From Bernardetiaceae bacterium (GTDB lineage: Bacteria > Bacteroidota > Bacteroidia > Cytophagales > Thermoflexibacteraceae), in contig JANWWZ010000020.1 in NCBI GenBank assembly GCA_025057115.1, positions 1-50,432 of the forward strand: a stretch of DNA of 50,432 bases. The letters are read 5' to 3'. The stretch's first letter is position 1; every line of letters begins with the position of its first letter. Below the pieces are notes generated by a model. The model saw only the letters and a list, made by a program, of their open reading frames with translations. It was not told where the DNA came from and ran no database searches. Below, one piece after another: positions 9,395 through 15,885 of the stretch. The translations under genes and the position numbers were made by a program.

Positions 9395-11002
9395 ATGAGC
9401 AAGAGACAACTCTATTACACCATCGCTCTTATGAGCGGGGCCACTTTGGGTCTTATTGGCTTGCAATTTTACTGGATTCACCAAGCTATAGAGTTAAATG
9501 CAGAACGCTTCAAGAGCGAGGCTATTAATGCCTTAGAGAACGTAGCGCACGCCTTAGAACGTCGCGAGTTGCGCCAAGCCATGGCGCGCTACTACCAACT
9601 AGCTGCCGAGCGAGACACACTCTTGGCACAAATCCTTCACCCACTGAGTTTTTCGGCAGAAAATAGCGGGGGATTGTTCTCCCATCCAGCTACTCCTCCC
9701 AAGCTGACTAATGAATTGGCTCAACCCAATTCCGTTAGCCGACGCCTAAAACATGGAAGCAATTTAATCTACCAAGAATGGGATAAATACTCCATGCCCA
9801 TTGGCGATTCGGTAATATACATGCAAAAATTGCAGCGCCAGCGCTTACTAGAAAACCTCGAAGAGCTGGAAATGATTATAGGGGTTCTCATCAACCGACG
9901 CAATTTTAACCGACCTCTTACAGAGCGCATCAACACCCCTATCATTGACTCTCTCCTGCGCATGGAACTAACTGCCAAAGGCATCAACTTGCCATATTTG
10001 TTCGGAATACTGGTAAAAGACACTGTGCAAGGATACCATTTCGATTACATCAATTTTACCAAAGACGACCTTACCAGCCTTAAATTACTCCACAGCGGCA
10101 TTGCAGTAAGATTATTTCCCAACGATGACCTTTCACCTTCTAGCTTTTTGCACGTCTATTTTCCAGACAAGAAAAAAACCATTTTTAGGCAAATGATTGC
10201 CGTGCTAATTTCCTCCGCCGTGTTTAACCTCATCATTATCGCTTGCTTTGCTATTGCTATTTCTACCATCATTCGCCAAAAAAAGATCTCCGAAGTAACG
10301 CGAGATTTCATCAATAACATGACGCATGAGTTTAAAACGCCAATTTCTACCATTTCCCTTGCTTGTCAAGCCCTTCAGGATCCCGACATGCGTTCCAATC
10401 CCCGCATTTTGGACCGCTATCTCACCATTATCCGAGATGAAAACAACCGCCTAGGGCATCAGGTGGAAAAGGTACTGCAAATTGCCTCCTTGGAAAAAGG
10501 CGACTACAAACTTAAGATAGAATCCGTAGATGTTCACGAGCTGCTAGAGAAAGCCGCCAATAACATGAAAATTGCTATAGAAAGCCGAGGTGGTAAGTTG
10601 ATTAAACAATTGGAAGCCACTAAAACTATTGTGCAAGCAGACCGCGTACATCTGGCTAATATTTTTTACAACTTGCTAGATAATGCCACCAAGTACTCCC
10701 CTGAAAAGCCACACATTACCATCACTACAGAAGAGGGGCGCAATGGCATTATCATTGCTATCAGTGACAAAGGCATTGGCATTGCCAAGGAGGTCATTAA
10801 CCGAATTTTTGATAAATTTTATCGCGTGCCTACGGGCAATATTCACAACGTAAAAGGATTTGGGCTAGGCTTGAGCTACGTGAAAATGATGATAGACGCC
10901 CACCACGGGCAAATCACAGTTCAAAGCCAACCTGGACAAGGTAGTACTTTCACCATATTTTTACCTTATCGCCATGAATCTCAACAAAATTCTCTTGGTT
11001 GA
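9395..11002 (+). CDS. Membrane-bound sensor histidine kinase
   Basis: Two-component sensor of 535 residues with TM1 (about residues 7-28), a roughly 235-residue periplasmic sensor region without a recognised fold, and TM2 (about 264-292). The HisKA dimerisation domain has phospho-acceptor His311 in NNMTHEFKTP. The HATPase_c domain has an N box (YNLLDNATKYSP), G1 (DKGIGIA) and G2 (GFGLGLSYVK). The kinase is followed immediately by its response regulator with a 29-bp overlap, so they form a pair. There is no HAMP or PAS domain between TM2 and HisKA: the helix runs directly in. The signal is unknown; the secreted tandem proteins upstream are candidate partners. Confidence 0.94.
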   Translation: MSKRQLYYTIALMSGATLGLIGLQFYWIHQAIELNAERFKSEAINALENVAHALERRELRQAMARYYQLAAERDTLLAQILHPLSFSAENSGGLFSHPATPPKLTNELAQPNSVSRRLKHGSNLIYQEWDKYSMPIGDSVIYMQKLQRQRLLENLEELEMIIGVLINRRNFNRPLTERINTPIIDSLLRMELTAKGINLPYLFGILVKDTVQGYHFDYINFTKDDLTSLKLLHSGIAVRLFPNDDLSPSSFLHVYFPDKKKTIFRQMIAVLISSAVFNLIIIACFAIAISTIIRQKKISEVTRDFINNMTHEFKTPISTISLACQALQDPDMRSNPRILDRYLTIIRDENNRLGHQVEKVLQIASLEKGDYKLKIESVDVHELLEKAANNMKIAIESRGGKLIKQLEATKTIVQADRVHLANIFYNLLDNATKYSPEKPHITITTEEGRNGIIIAISDKGIGIAKEVINRIFDKFYRVPTGNIHNVKGFGLGLSYVKMMIDAHHGQITVQSQPGQGSTFTIFLPYRHESQQNSLG

Positions 11003-11666
11003 AGACGATCCCAATCTAGGGCAGATTTTAAAGGATTATTTGGAAGTGAAAGGCTTTCAACCCTCCCTTTACCACGATGGCAAAAGTGCATTGAAAGCCT
11101 TCAAAAGCGAAGTGTTTCAACTTTGCATTTTTGATGTGATGATGCCTATCATGGACGGCTTTACCCTAGCAGAAGAAGTGCGCAAAATTGAAAAAGACGT
11201 GCCGATTATCTTCCTGACAGCCAAATCCATGAAAGAAGACACTATCCGCGGCTTTCAGATAGGGGCAGACGACTACATTACCAAGCCCTTTAGCATGGAA
11301 GAATTGTTGCTGCGCATCAACGCCATCTTGCGCCGCACTATCAAGAATCCGCTCCCGCCTTCAGGGGTTTACCAACTCGGCCACTATACCTTTGATCCTA
11401 AGTTGCATCTTCTTTCAGGGCTGGGGCAAGAAGTCAAACTTACTTCTAAGGAAGCTGAATTGCTGGAAATGCTTTGCCAGCACAAGAACCAACTCTTAGA
11501 GCGCTCCAAAGCCCTGCGCCAAGTTTGGGGAGATGACAACTATTTTAACTCCCGCAGCATGGATGTATACATCACCAAACTGCGCAAGCTACTTAAAGGC
11601 GATGAGCGAATCCAAATTATGAACATTCACGGAACAGGTTATAAATTGATTGTCCCAGAAAATTAG
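10974..11666 (+). CDS. OmpR/PhoB-type response regulator
   Basis: A 230-residue DNA-binding regulator. The receiver domain (1-120) has the acidic pair DD (11-12), phospho-acceptor Asp54 in IFDVMMP, Thr82 and Lys104 of TKPF. The C-terminal winged helix (about 130-228) has the trans_reg_C pattern LTSKEAELLEML and MDVYITKLRKLL with the closing IHGTGYKLI. It overlaps the kinase by 29 bp. Its stop overlaps that of the convergent AraC gene by 4 bp, leaving no room for an independent terminator. Targets are unknown. Confidence 0.95.
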   Translation: MNLNKILLVEDDPNLGQILKDYLEVKGFQPSLYHDGKSALKAFKSEVFQLCIFDVMMPIMDGFTLAEEVRKIEKDVPIIFLTAKSMKEDTIRGFQIGADDYITKPFSMEELLLRINAILRRTIKNPLPPSGVYQLGHYTFDPKLHLLSGLGQEVKLTSKEAELLEMLCQHKNQLLERSKALRQVWGDDNYFNSRSMDVYITKLRKLLKGDERIQIMNIHGTGYKLIVPEN

Positions 11667-12586
11667 TTGAGCATTAGCCTAAACTCGGTGGGGGTATATC
11701 CTACTTTTTGCTTAAAAAGCCGCGTAAAATGCTGTGGATATTCAAAACCAAGCTCGTAAGCTATTTCGCTAATTGACTTTTCAGTAGTCAATAGCTGTTC
11801 TTTGGCAAGTTGCAATATCCATAGTTGAATGTATTCTTGCGCAGTTTTTCCAGTTTGTTTTTTTATCAAATCGCCGAAATATTTGTATGAAAAGCAAAGT
11901 TCTTCTGCACACTGGGCTACCGATGGCAATCCTTCCTTTTGCAAACGCCCTGAATGATAATAGTTTTCCAGTAGCTTATTAAATTTTTCAACAACGCCCT
12001 TGTGCAGGTCCTCCCGCGTAATAAATTGCCTGTCATAGAACCTCATGCAATAATCTAAGAATAAACCAATGGTGCTTACAAGGAGCTTTTTAGTGTAGCG
12101 GTCTAGAGGGCGCTCTATTTCTCGCCTCATTTTTTTGAAAAGGCTTTCTACAATTTCTCGCTCTTGCAAAGAGATGTGAAGAGCTTCGCGAACACTGTAA
12201 GAAAAAAATGAATAATCCTGGATGTTTTGCCTCAAAGGAGTACCTAGCAGAAGATCAGGGTGAAAGATGAGTGCCCAGCCCTTAGGTGGCTGGCTGTTTT
12301 GAGCGTCTCTGATTACTTCTATGATTTGACCTGGAGCTAAAAATACTAAAGTACCTTCTTGGTAGTCGTAAAAGGTGCGACCATAGCGCAGCATGCCGCA
12401 ATTCGAGTCTTTTAAGTAAATGGCATACAATTCAAAACGCAGCTTGCCTTTGTTTTCCGAAGGAGGAGGCGGCACAGAAGTGGACAAATCAAAAACAGTG
12501 ATTAAAGGATGATAGGTGGGTATTTTATAGCGCTCATTGTAGCGCGTTACGCTGTCCACCACAGTGATTTTTTCCATATAACTCAT
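11663..12586 (-). CDS. AraC-family transcriptional regulator
   Basis: A 307-residue regulator. The N-terminal half is a cupin-like ligand/dimerisation region (FELYAIYLKDSNCGMLRYGR, then YQEGTLVFLAPGQIIEV). The C-terminal 100 residues carry the two AraC helix-turn-helix units: VAQCAEELCFSYKYFGDLIK, then ISEIAYELGFEYPQHFTRLF ending GYTPTEFRLML. It is divergent from the DUF5916 gene at 12721. The 134-bp spacer holds a direct repeat at 21-bp spacing, as expected for an AraC-type operator, so it probably controls that gene and perhaps itself (inference). An alternative start is the ATG at 12577. Confidence 0.93.
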   Translation of the reverse strand: MSYMEKITVVDSVTRYNERYKIPTYHPLITVFDLSTSVPPPPSENKGKLRFELYAIYLKDSNCGMLRYGRTFYDYQEGTLVFLAPGQIIEVIRDAQNSQPPKGWALIFHPDLLLGTPLRQNIQDYSFFSYSVREALHISLQEREIVESLFKKMRREIERPLDRYTKKLLVSTIGLFLDYCMRFYDRQFITREDLHKGVVEKFNKLLENYYHSGRLQKEGLPSVAQCAEELCFSYKYFGDLIKKQTGKTAQEYIQLWILQLAKEQLLTTEKSISEIAYELGFEYPQHFTRLFKQKVGYTPTEFRLMLN

Positions 12587-12631
12587 TGGTTTTCAGCAAA
12601 TGTAGTCCCTTCGAGCCGAATTTTCTACCAC

Positions 12632-12667
12632 TTCTGGAATAATGGTTATTAGTTCTGGAATGGTGGT
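12632..12667. promoter_or_regulatory. 21-bp-spaced direct repeat, candidate AraC-regulator operator
   Basis: TTCTGGAATAATGGT at 12632-12646 and TTCTGGAATGGTGGT at 12653-12667 agree at 13 of 15 positions and start exactly 21 bp apart, two helical turns. The downstream copy abuts the expected -33 region of the promoter at 12691. AraC-type activators bind such direct repeats; the assignment to the adjacent regulator is inferred. Confidence 0.55.
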
Positions 12668-12690
12668 AAGCCGCTCCCTGAAGGGGGAAG

Positions 12691-12698
12691 TAACTTTG
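12691..12698 (+). promoter_or_regulatory. -7 element for the DUF5916 gene
   Basis: TAACTTTG fully matches TAnnTTTG, 22 bp before the ATG. There is no TTG at the -33 position. A weak -33 region plus the adjacent direct repeat fits an activator-dependent promoter. Confidence 0.5.
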
Positions 12699-12720
12699 CA
12701 CAGGATTAAAAATAAGGACC

Positions 12721-14928
12721 ATGAAAAACATTTTTTTAATTGCTACTTTGCTAGCTGCTGCTTGGCAAACGGCTGCACAAACTGAAACAGTTTCTCTTAC
12801 TGCCAAATACACTGATGAAAAAATTGTGATCGATGGAAAACTTGACGAACCGGTTTGGCAAACGGCAGAAAAAATAACCAACTTTTGGCAATATTTCCCG
12901 ACTGACTCGGTAAAAGCGCGCAACCAAACCCAAGCTCGCGTGCTTTACAACGACGAGGCAATTTACATAGGCATTCTAGCTCACACTTCAGGCAATCGCT
13001 TTGTGATTAACTCCCTGCGCCGCGATTTCATGGGAGCCGAAAATGACAACGTAGCTCTTGTATTCGATACCTTTAGCGATGGCAATACGGCATACTTATT
13101 CAGCGCGAGTCCTTACGGAGTGCAGCGCGAAGCCTTAGTAGCGGATGGAGGCGCTAACCGCGAAAGTTTCAACCTTGCCTGGGACATGAAGTGGCAAGTG
13201 GAAAGTACGCGTGGCGAAAATTTTTACATCTTAGAAATTGCTATTCCATTTAGTTCAATGAAATTTCCCGAAGGAAGCCAGAAGTGGCGTTTCCAAGTCT
13301 TCCGCTGGGATTTGCAATCTAACGAACAAAGTGCTTGGTCACGCGTTCCACAAAACCAATTGCTAGCTAATCTGGCTTTTATGGGTGAGTTAATTTTTGA
13401 AAAGCCTCTGGGAAAAAGCCGTCCTCCTATCTACTTGATTCCTTACGTCAATGGACTTTCGGCTAAGGATTTTCAAACTGAACAAGCCAAAACTACTAAT
13501 AAATTTTCTACAGGAGTAGATGCCAAAGTAGCCATCGGCAACGGCATGAACTTGGATATTACCCTCAACCCAGATTTTTCAAATGTAGAAGTAGATAACA
13601 TTGTAACTAATTTAACGCGGTTTGAGATTTTCTTGCCAGAGAGAAGACAATTTTTCATTGACAACAACGACCTTTTTGGCAACTTTGGCGACTATTTTGC
13701 CACCATGCGTACTTTCTTTTCGCGCCGAATAGGCATTATTACTGACACTATCGGCAGAACTGTAGAAAACCGCATCTTAGGAGGTTTCCGACTCAGCGGA
13801 AAGCTCAACAATAACTGGCGGCTAGGAGCCATGAGCATCCAAACAGCACAAAACCCTGCCAATCGCATCGCTTCTAACAACAACTCCATGATTGTTTTGC
13901 AGCGAAAAGTATTTAGCCGTTCTAACGTAGGCGCTTTCGTAATTAGCAGAGAAGCATTTTACAGTAGCGATTTTCAGAGTACCCAACCTAAGTACAACCG
14001 CGTAATAGGCATGGACTACAACCTGGCTTCTAAGGACAATACCTGGAACGGCAAATTTTTCTTGCACAAGTCATTTCAGCCCGATGACAAAAGCGGCAAC
14101 TTAGCAGCCCAAGCAACACTTACCTACAATACTCGCTTTTGGAACCTAATTACCGATTGGCTATACGTAGACAAAGACTTTCGCTCTGATTTAGGATTTA
14201 TTCCACGCACTGATTTCTTCCGCTTGGGCAATAGCATAGCCCATACCTTTTACCCTACCCGAGGAATTATCAACAGACATACGCCGAGAATAGTTTACGT
14301 GCAAATTTTTTCCCCAAGCATGGGCTACCAACGCACTGACCAATTTGTATGGGCTTCTTACAATTTTGAATTTCGCAATCAAGCCACTGTTGAACTGCGC
14401 TACACTTGGGATTACGTCTATCTCACCTTCCCTTTTGACCCCTCACGCACCTATCGCAAACAACCTTTGCCCGCTGGTACCGACTATAGCTACAGCCGCT
14501 GGGGCATCAATTTCAACTCTAACCCGACTAAAAAATTTGTATGGTCCGCCGGTGCTGCCACTGGACAATTTTACAATGGCATAGGACATTCCTTCAATCT
14601 CTCGGCTGGCTTGAGGCTCATCCCCTATGCCCAAGTGAGTTTAACTGCCAATTACGACAAGATTATCTTACCTGAGCCTCATGCCTCTTCAGACATGCTT
14701 ATCATCAGCCCGCGCATGGATATTACTTTCAGTAAATCCTTGTTTTGGTCTACTCTTGTCCAATATGCTACCCAGCGCAACAATTTAGGCATTAACTCGC
14801 GCTTGCAATGGCGCTTCGCTCCCCTTTCCGACTTGTTTGTAGTGTATAATGACAACTATTTTGCAGAAAACTTTGCACCGCGCTTTCGCTCTATTAATTT
14901 AAAGTTCACCTACTGGTTTGGCATCTAG
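12721..14928 (+). CDS. CBM9-like / DUF5916 outer-membrane protein
   Basis: Exported protein of 735 residues. After a signal peptide (1-19, ending TAAQ) comes a carbohydrate-binding family 9-like domain (about 25-220; KIVIDGKLDEPVWQTAEK and YNDEAIYIGILAH). A long beta-strand-rich DUF5916 region extends to the C terminus, ending RFRSINLKFTYWFGI, a pattern typical of an outer-membrane beta-barrel with a terminal aromatic. The segment LNPDFSNVEVD is characteristic of the family. The function of DUF5916 proteins is not established; a role in outer-membrane binding or uptake is inference. It is divergent from an AraC regulator and tail-to-tail with the next gene, with no gap between the stop codons. 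Confidence 0.9.
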   Translation: MKNIFLIATLLAAAWQTAAQTETVSLTAKYTDEKIVIDGKLDEPVWQTAEKITNFWQYFPTDSVKARNQTQARVLYNDEAIYIGILAHTSGNRFVINSLRRDFMGAENDNVALVFDTFSDGNTAYLFSASPYGVQREALVADGGANRESFNLAWDMKWQVESTRGENFYILEIAIPFSSMKFPEGSQKWRFQVFRWDLQSNEQSAWSRVPQNQLLANLAFMGELIFEKPLGKSRPPIYLIPYVNGLSAKDFQTEQAKTTNKFSTGVDAKVAIGNGMNLDITLNPDFSNVEVDNIVTNLTRFEIFLPERRQFFIDNNDLFGNFGDYFATMRTFFSRRIGIITDTIGRTVENRILGGFRLSGKLNNNWRLGAMSIQTAQNPANRIASNNNSMIVLQRKVFSRSNVGAFVISREAFYSSDFQSTQPKYNRVIGMDYNLASKDNTWNGKFFLHKSFQPDDKSGNLAAQATLTYNTRFWNLITDWLYVDKDFRSDLGFIPRTDFFRLGNSIAHTFYPTRGIINRHTPRIVYVQIFSPSMGYQRTDQFVWASYNFEFRNQATVELRYTWDYVYLTFPFDPSRTYRKQPLPAGTDYSYSRWGINFNSNPTKKFVWSAGAATGQFYNGIGHSFNLSAGLRLIPYAQVSLTANYDKIILPEPHASSDMLIISPRMDITFSKSLFWSTLVQYATQRNNLGINSRLQWRFAPLSDLFVVYNDNYFAENFAPRFRSINLKFTYWFGI

Positions 14929-15885
14929 CTATGGGCTCACTAGCTCAATGATCTCCCCTACAGGTCCTTGAAATACTACCGCATTGGGCTCTTCCTCATG
15001 GAGAAGGGGCAATCCAATGCGGCTTATGATTTTAAAACCACTATTGGCTATCTGAGAAGCAGCAAGGTCTAAGTGAGGCGATTGCCAACAAGCCGAAGCC
15101 AAACCTGTTTTTTCAAACGAACAGGGATAAGTCTTGAACTCATAAGTAGGATTGTAGGGACCGTAAACATGCTGCTCCATACCTATGCGGTGCAAGTCAT
15201 GACCCATGAGCAACATGTCAAAAGACATTTCTAAAGGTCCTCCCATGATTTTAGCAGCTAGGGGTTGGCTCATATGCAGGTCATTGACGGGAGTGATTCC
15301 CAACACGGGTTGCCAAAAAGTTTCTATTGGGCTGCGGTCCTTTGTAGAAATAACTACGTTAGCGGGGGTATTAACGCCCTTTACTGCCGAGTCTCTTAGC
15401 AACGATACACCTCCCTTGCGACGGATGATTTGCGTGATAAAAATTTGCTCTCCCGCTGGTCCAAAAAACGCAACACTTTTCATCACCACCCAGCCTAGTG
15501 GTTCGTCTCCTTTTGCTTCAAACACAGTAGGCTCAGAAATAGCTCCGAAGCGATTGCGCAACAAACGATAATAAACCGCTTCTACGTCGGTAGTGCCAAC
15601 CTCTATTACTGCCATGCCTAAATCCCACGGGTTGGCATCCAAACGATTGGGCAGAGCATCCACAAGACAGTTTTCCAGCAGACGTACCACGGAGCCTTGT
15701 TCATAACCTAGCAAAGCATAACGCAACAGGTGCTTGCCAAAAATTTCCCGTTGCTGAGGGCTCAGGACGCCTTGGCGCAATATCTTATATCCAAGCCCCT
15801 GTACGTAAAAACGCAAACTTTGATGCCAACAGTTGGTAACTATGCTTACCGCTTGCAATGAGCCCGTTAACAGAACAAAATCCAT
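14929..15885 (-). CDS. Two-domain glyoxalase-fold (VOC superfamily) protein
   Basis: A 318-residue, probably cytoplasmic protein built of two related halves. The first (about 1-150) opens with LQAVSIVTNCWHQSLRFYVQGLGYKIL and the second (about 165-318) with ANVVISTKDRSPIETFWQPVLGI. Both show the VOC pattern in which a strand is followed by a helix leading to an (L/V)G.. turn, and the second ends VFQGPVGEIIELV with the usual metal-ligand-type Glu. The substrate is not identifiable; dioxygenase, lyase and resistance proteins share this fold. Its stop abuts that of the DUF5916 gene. It has its own upstream spacer (15886-16012) shared with the divergent DksA-like gene. Confidence 0.75.
   Translation of the reverse strand: MDFVLLTGSLQAVSIVTNCWHQSLRFYVQGLGYKILRQGVLSPQQREIFGKHLLRYALLGYEQGSVVRLLENCLVDALPNRLDANPWDLGMAVIEVGTTDVEAVYYRLLRNRFGAISEPTVFEAKGDEPLGWVVMKSVAFFGPAGEQIFITQIIRRKGGVSLLRDSAVKGVNTPANVVISTKDRSPIETFWQPVLGITPVNDLHMSQPLAAKIMGGPLEMSFDMLLMGHDLHRIGMEQHVYGPYNPTYEFKTYPCSFEKTGLASACWQSPHLDLAASQIANSGFKIISRIGLPLLHEEEPNAVVFQGPVGEIIELVSP

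Follow-up and report, generated by a model that had tools for sequence, protein, structure and literature searches.

A candidate AraC-type operator of 21-bp direct repeats between divergent araC and DUF5916 genes, and a putative operator family of related Bacteroidota regulators

The window analysed here, that is, the whole 50,432-nucleotide stretch of contig JANWWZ010000020.1 from a Bernardetiaceae bacterium, contains a regulator gene of the AraC family and, divergent from it, a gene for a CBM9-like protein with a DUF5916 domain (Table 1). The two are separated by a 134-bp spacer (12587–12720), with 12586 as the listed first base of araC and 12721 as that of the DUF5916 gene. Within this spacer two 15-mers, TTCTGGAATAATGGT at 12632–12646 and TTCTGGAATGGTGGT at 12653–12667, are identical at 13 of 15 positions and follow each other, start to start, at 21 bp. 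The initial annotation had pointed to these repeats, and also to a DUF5916 promoter with a perfect -7 box but no -33 TTG; coordinates and identity of the repeats were confirmed, and so was the promoter, as TAACTTTG fits the TAnnTTTG pattern in full and no TTG stands at the expected -33 position. In a Flavobacterium the TAnnTTTG box sits at -12 to -5 (PMC9723704), and transcription of the DUF5916 gene would begin at about 12703.

Several smaller features of the neighbourhood complete this picture. The listed araC start leaves a leader of only ~6 bases past the transcription start of this gene, predicted at about 12592, and an alternative start, the ATG at 12577 (fourth codon), is closer to the starts of several homologs. 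At its other end, araC converges with a response regulator gene, the two overlapping by four bases (11663–11666). The DUF5916 gene is apparently monocistronic and its product is presumably located in the outer membrane; its end adjoins that of a convergent gene (14929–15885) at 14928–14929, and in the latter no Pfam match was found at E 0.001.

Table 1. Genes and putative regulatory elements of the araC–DUF5916 region (window coordinates).
Feature	Positions	Strand	Evidence
AraC-family regulator, 307 aa	11663–12586	-	HTH_18 E 1.1e-20; HTH_AraC 8.4e-17
Probable araC -7 box TACATTTG, 26 bp from the operator on its other side	12597–12604	-	TATATTTG at 25 bp in sister
Candidate operator, two direct half-sites with 21-bp period, toward the DUF5916 gene	12631–12667	+	Rank 1 of 100,792 for learned motif; sole zero-mismatch match in genome
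Distal half-site CTTCTGGAATAATGGT	12631–12646	+	10.7 bits; 12/16 identical in sister
Proximal half-site GTTCTGGAATGGTGGT, abutting the expected -33 region	12652–12667	+	7.3 bits; 15/16 identical in sister
-7 box TAACTTTG of the DUF5916 promoter, 23 bp past the operator	12691–12698	+	Full TAnnTTTG match; 8/8 in sister
Putative target gene, CBM9-like + DUF5916, signal-peptide-like start	12721–14928	+	DUF5916 E 4.1e-20; CBM9_1 E 2.5e-8

The simplest alternative to a regulatory site is that the spacer repeats itself by accident. When the spacer was shuffled with only its base content preserved, an identity of 13/15 at offset 21 was never reached in 20,000 mononucleotide shuffles, and the same identity at any offset from 15 to 59 was reached in five of 3,000 shuffled spacers. 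The repeat-pair pattern occurs once in the window and in none of 100 dinucleotide shuffles. Across the 3.0-Mb genome, the window pair is the only zero-mismatch match to two degenerate patterns. The next best matches to the first pattern are one place with two mismatches (L120, within whose locus no AraC homolog was found) and five with three (reversed control, 5), and those to the second are seven places with three mismatches, one of them overlapping the window site (reversed control, 22). These weaker matches fall in the range of the reversed controls; we claim no further targets in this genome. Single 15-mers are not special either: one has a second exact copy on another contig, which we dismissed as a site since it lies inside an unrelated reading frame. 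That copy and the five shuffled spacers are what accident has in its favour; set against them are the 20,000 shuffles at offset 21, the conservation in a sister genome and the first rank given to the site by a motif learned elsewhere (both described below), and we regard a chance origin as next to negligible.

Four genomes of the genus were searched, the window's own among them. One of these, hereafter the sister (G002), carries the orthologous pair (AraC 82% and DUF5916 86% identical), and in its spacer both half-sites recur at the 21-bp period, with TAACTTTG again 23 bp beyond the operator. Specifically, the two genomes agree at 30 of 37 operator positions and at all eight positions of the -7 box, against 37 of 81 in the remaining spacer. 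Conservation of the repeat at orthologous loci, on whose presence the initial annotation had made its operator reading depend, thus holds for one orthologous pair. In a further genome of the genus (G001), a more distant AraC protein (50% identity) is accompanied by a 22.2-bit operator beside a DUF4440 gene; in the last (G003), no close AraC homolog was found.

The surroundings of the pair in the sister bear on a second alternative, namely that the repeats serve another regulator, such as the OmpR-type response regulator encoded at 10974–11666. The histidine kinase/response regulator pair directly adjoins araC in the window, and OmpR-type proteins also bind direct repeats; such repeats are, however, usually about 10–11 bp apart. 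Four genes downstream of DUF5916 are again found beside it in the sister, and neither the histidine kinase and response regulator nor the three genes upstream of them were found in the 19.5 kb of that genome examined. The araC–DUF5916 pair, together with its repeats, thus stays joined there though the two-component genes that adjoin araC in the window were not found. As the motif also goes with the AraC subfamily to which the window regulator belongs (see below), we consider a site for the response regulator or a similar protein very unlikely.

The upstream regions of homologous araC genes point instead to the AraC-type regulator. We assembled 110 araC-homolog loci, consisting of 30 (the window plus one each from 29 other genomes) and a further 80 among the matches listed for GTDB species genomes, the two sets sharing some organisms. 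An offset spectrum of the 150 bp upstream of araC, computed without any motif and with shuffles that preserve dinucleotides, was highest at 21 bp for regulators with at least 50% identity (z 8.1; 25 sequences, the sister included and the window left out) and again for those with 45–50% identity (z 3.9; 64 sequences), and below 45% identity offsets of 21 and 19 bp tied (z 2.8 for 21; 18 sequences). A half-site matrix was then learned de novo without the window and sister, from starting matrices taken from the training loci alone and with the 21-bp period imposed. Its first version was in a poor phase, with the window site outside its best window matches, and was re-phased and retrained on sites of at least 16 bits. 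The loci had initially been viewed with a window/sister-type seed, which was used neither in the offset spectrum nor in the half-site model. The model converged on AATCCGTAATATGGGT, or better AATCMGTAAWnnnKRT, occurring twice at 21 bp, and reached at least 16 bits in 38 of 105 sequences and in none of 2,100 sequences shuffled with base content alone preserved; 33 of these 38 operators read away from araC. On both strands of the window, it places 12631–12667 first, at 18.0 bits against 10.4 for the second position. Of the 38 family sites, 34 outscore that of the window, because the latter carries GGAA in both halves.

This register settles the extent of the element: the two 15-mers stand as first described, and the operator that had been put at 12632–12667 runs from 12631 to 12667 in the register of the family motif. 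The 21-bp preference and the motif upstream of homologous araC genes support the AraC-type reading that the initial annotation had given the repeats; the wider operator family, and the fixed -7 distance described below, were beyond its view because it was made from the sequence of the window alone. Searches with patterns extended the family somewhat further. A looser family pattern had 11 matches in 59 genomes of the order and its reversed form none; in nine of the 11 the 3-kb locus also contains an araC homolog, and eight of these nine were already in our collection. The new ones among the 11 are L152, which has araC, and L150 and L151, in whose 3-kb loci no araC homolog was found. The operators of these last two adjoin an aldo/keto reductase gene and a DUF4440 gene, an arrangement hinting at regulators that, in some cases, act on genes far from their own. 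A strict pattern had two matches in 198 genomes of the phylum, namely the already known L145, and L146, which has an AraC-like start on one side and genes for aldo/keto reductase, cupin and DUF4440 proteins on the other.

The operator appears to follow one type of regulator, as told by the motif (YFGD or YLSD) in its first recognition helix. A site of at least 18 bits within up to 500 bp was found at 38 of 83 YFGD-type loci, at none of 26 YLSD-type loci, not at the one other locus and in one of 110 control segments, a contrast with the YLSD type that is supportive only, and not independent, given that the matrix was trained mostly on YFGD-type loci. The window site, at 17.98 bits, falls just under this cut. 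At 45 of the 83 YFGD-type loci there is no 18-bit site in up to 500 bp, in some cases apparently because araC is in an operon. Similarly, several araC genes of the YLSD type stand downstream of a co-directional gene: homologs of this group (for example L025, L026, L027, L090, L102 and L109) often come behind genes that we take to be short-chain-dehydrogenase-like, and the operator is absent from up to 500 bp ahead of their araC. Judged from these sequences, the YFGD-type AraC group of Bacteroidota would share a family of operators that are similar in architecture and diverged in sequence, and the 37-bp element of the window, presumably paired with the adjacent AraC regulator, is very probably the operator through which this regulator switches on its neighbouring gene.

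The distances between operator and promoter bear on the probable sign of regulation. Among 35 loci with an operator of at least 17.9 bits reading away from araC, we recorded -7-like boxes matching at least five of six positions. Outside the window pair, the box lies exactly 24 bp from the operator in 24 of 33 loci and is absent at 24 bp in nine, every other distance from 0 to 59 being represented by at most one locus; in the window and sister the distance is exactly 23 bp. Contact between the bound protein and RNA polymerase would be expected to impose such rigidity, and a proximal half-site at the -33/-35 region with a fixed distance to the -7/-10 box is the geometry of class II activation. 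Many of the boxes at 24 bp (14 of 24, among them those of L014, L016, L018, L021 and L022) are imperfect, 13 of them with G or C as the first base of TAnnTTTG, as if held weak without an activator. The window box, unlike these, is perfect.

On the araC side, -7-like boxes also keep preferred distances, at 36–37 bp in 25 of the 35 loci and, about one helical turn shorter, at 25–26 bp in six, the window and sister included. These preferences, and the position of the operator between two divergent promoters, would be compatible with a third alternative in which the regulator does bind here, as a repressor blocking the -33 region or mainly as a controller of araC. The single -7 distance shared on the side away from araC and the orientation of most operators away from that gene argue against it, as does the DUF5916 promoter, which has no -33 TTG and should therefore require assistance. 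A parallel is AggR, an AraC/XylS-family activator whose site overlaps -35 and is most effective at 22 bp from the -10 element (PMC6392122). AggR resembles the window family in this fixed distance; it differs in having a single functional site per fimbrial promoter without a tandem repeat, in being a virulence regulator and in acting on E. coli promoters. Overall we consider a repressing or mainly araC-directed role improbable, and activation of the DUF5916 gene remains our preferred reading.

The regulator protein is built in a manner that would suit this role. Its C-terminal part has the two-HTH domain of the family, with sequence matches to the SoxS, AraC and MarA domains and, in the predicted model (mean pLDDT 84.3, pTM 0.60), fold matches to AraC-type DNA-binding domains. 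The N-terminal part has no Pfam match; its model matches the RhaR regulatory domain (TMt 0.66–0.73) and the arabinose-binding domain entries of AraC (TMt 0.57–0.67), and so resembles the ligand-binding and dimerisation domain of AraC-kind regulators. Full-length ToxT, Rns and CsvR rank high at low TM (0.26–0.37), the two domains being placed differently. Because the modelled N-terminal part has this AraC/RhaR-like fold, a ligand-gated dimer is likely.

From the observed sites, with their conservation, orientation, spacing and phasing, we infer with high confidence that the adjacent AraC regulator uses the 37-bp element as its operator and that this mediates class II activation of the DUF5916 gene by a dimer, where the identity of the binding protein, the dimer, the ligand and the positive sign are parts of the model. 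In this model, a dimer joined through the AraC-like N-terminal domain would occupy each half-site with one two-HTH DNA-binding domain, and the two domains would lie on one face of the DNA. Its promoter-proximal subunit would reach up to the border of the -33 region and stop 23 bp ahead of TAACTTTG. Presumably with ligand in the N-terminal domain, this subunit would contact sigma and recruit RNA polymerase, so that the bound dimer would substitute for the missing -33 TTG. The regulator is likely to control araC as well, because the probable araC -7 box is found 26 bp from the operator, on the side opposite the DUF5916 promoter.

The genes opposite these regulators are of several kinds. The window aside, 34 operator loci were considered; 30 of them have a divergent ORF, and 25 of these were scanned with Pfam, leaving out L013 (close to L012) and four with short, distant or doubtful ORFs (L019, L044, L053, L075). 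The scanned genes comprise seven aldo/keto reductases and five DUF4440 genes (together 12 of 25), one DUF5916 gene (that of the sister), nine from other families (carboxylesterase, another hydrolase, hexapeptide transferase, cupin, flavodoxin, carboxymuconolactone decarboxylase, cyclophilin-like, carbon-nitrogen hydrolase and DXP synthase) and three without a Pfam match. Among scanned genes, DUF5916 thus stands opposite the regulator only in the window and sister, and the kind of operator is retained while the target differs. A full-text literature search for DUF5916 gave no paper.

The window lineage also departs from the family in both the protein and its site. The first recognition helix reads S[AP]NYFGD in 69 of the 83 YFGD-type proteins and SYKYFGD in two, those of the window and sister. 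The family half-site has GTAA where both halves of the window and sister sites have GGAA. Among the 38 listed operators, only that of the sister carries this G in both halves (as does the window site, below the cut); G in one half-site occurs with an N-type helix in L016, L019 and L044, and also in L052 and L055 at 16–18 bits. The exchanged residue (235, K in place of N) corresponds in the alignment to Trp 36 of SoxS, and the MarA Trp that matches this residue contacts DNA. Lysine at the equivalent of residue 235 is also present in six YLSD-type proteins. It is possible, from the sequences compared, that the SYK helix and the GGAA half-sites represent a matched change; with a single evolutionary event behind it, the coincidence is no proof on its own. 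More broadly, the YFGD clade may have kept one rigidly phased operator on unrelated targets, with an N-to-K exchange at residue 235 accompanying the GTAA-to-GGAA change in the window lineage while the target became DUF5916, a scenario we put forward as speculative and rather unlikely to hold in full.

The arrangement has a well-known counterpart. At araBAD of E. coli, AraC binds direct half-sites 21 bp apart (I1–I2), the proximal one at -35, with the araC gene divergent. The window locus is alike in its two direct half-sites, their 21-bp distance, the proximal position at the -35 region and the divergent regulator gene; it differs in half-site sequence and in its Bacteroidota-type TAnnTTTG promoter. 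Similarly, direct repeats of 21 bp have been predicted in Bacteroides for an AraC-family regulator that governs rhamnose use (PMC3870299); these RhaR-type regulators concern rhamnose catabolism, and the likeness considered here is that of the spacing. A likeness by kind of target is offered by YqhC, an AraC-type activator of the aldehyde reductase and methylglyoxal reductase genes yqhD/dkgA in E. coli (PMC8262776): these targets resemble the aldo/keto reductases opposite the relatives of the window regulator, whereas the window target itself is DUF5916 and not a reductase. Repeats at 21 bp are thus already known for AraC regulators, and the switch looks real and of a well-known kind. A description of the YFGD-type operator family was not found in the open-licence full-text literature, in searches that were partly aimed elsewhere.

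For a group of Bacteroidota regulators of the AraC type, the analysis adds a concrete layout of operator and promoter. The operator sequence could serve to assign target genes to them, and there is now a first handle on the control of a DUF5916 gene. The window site and its family relatives also offer a natural variant pair for how the first HTH of AraC proteins reads DNA; if the matched change is true, the N-to-K exchange with GGAA would amount to a switch of specificity that arose naturally in a regulator with two HTH motifs.
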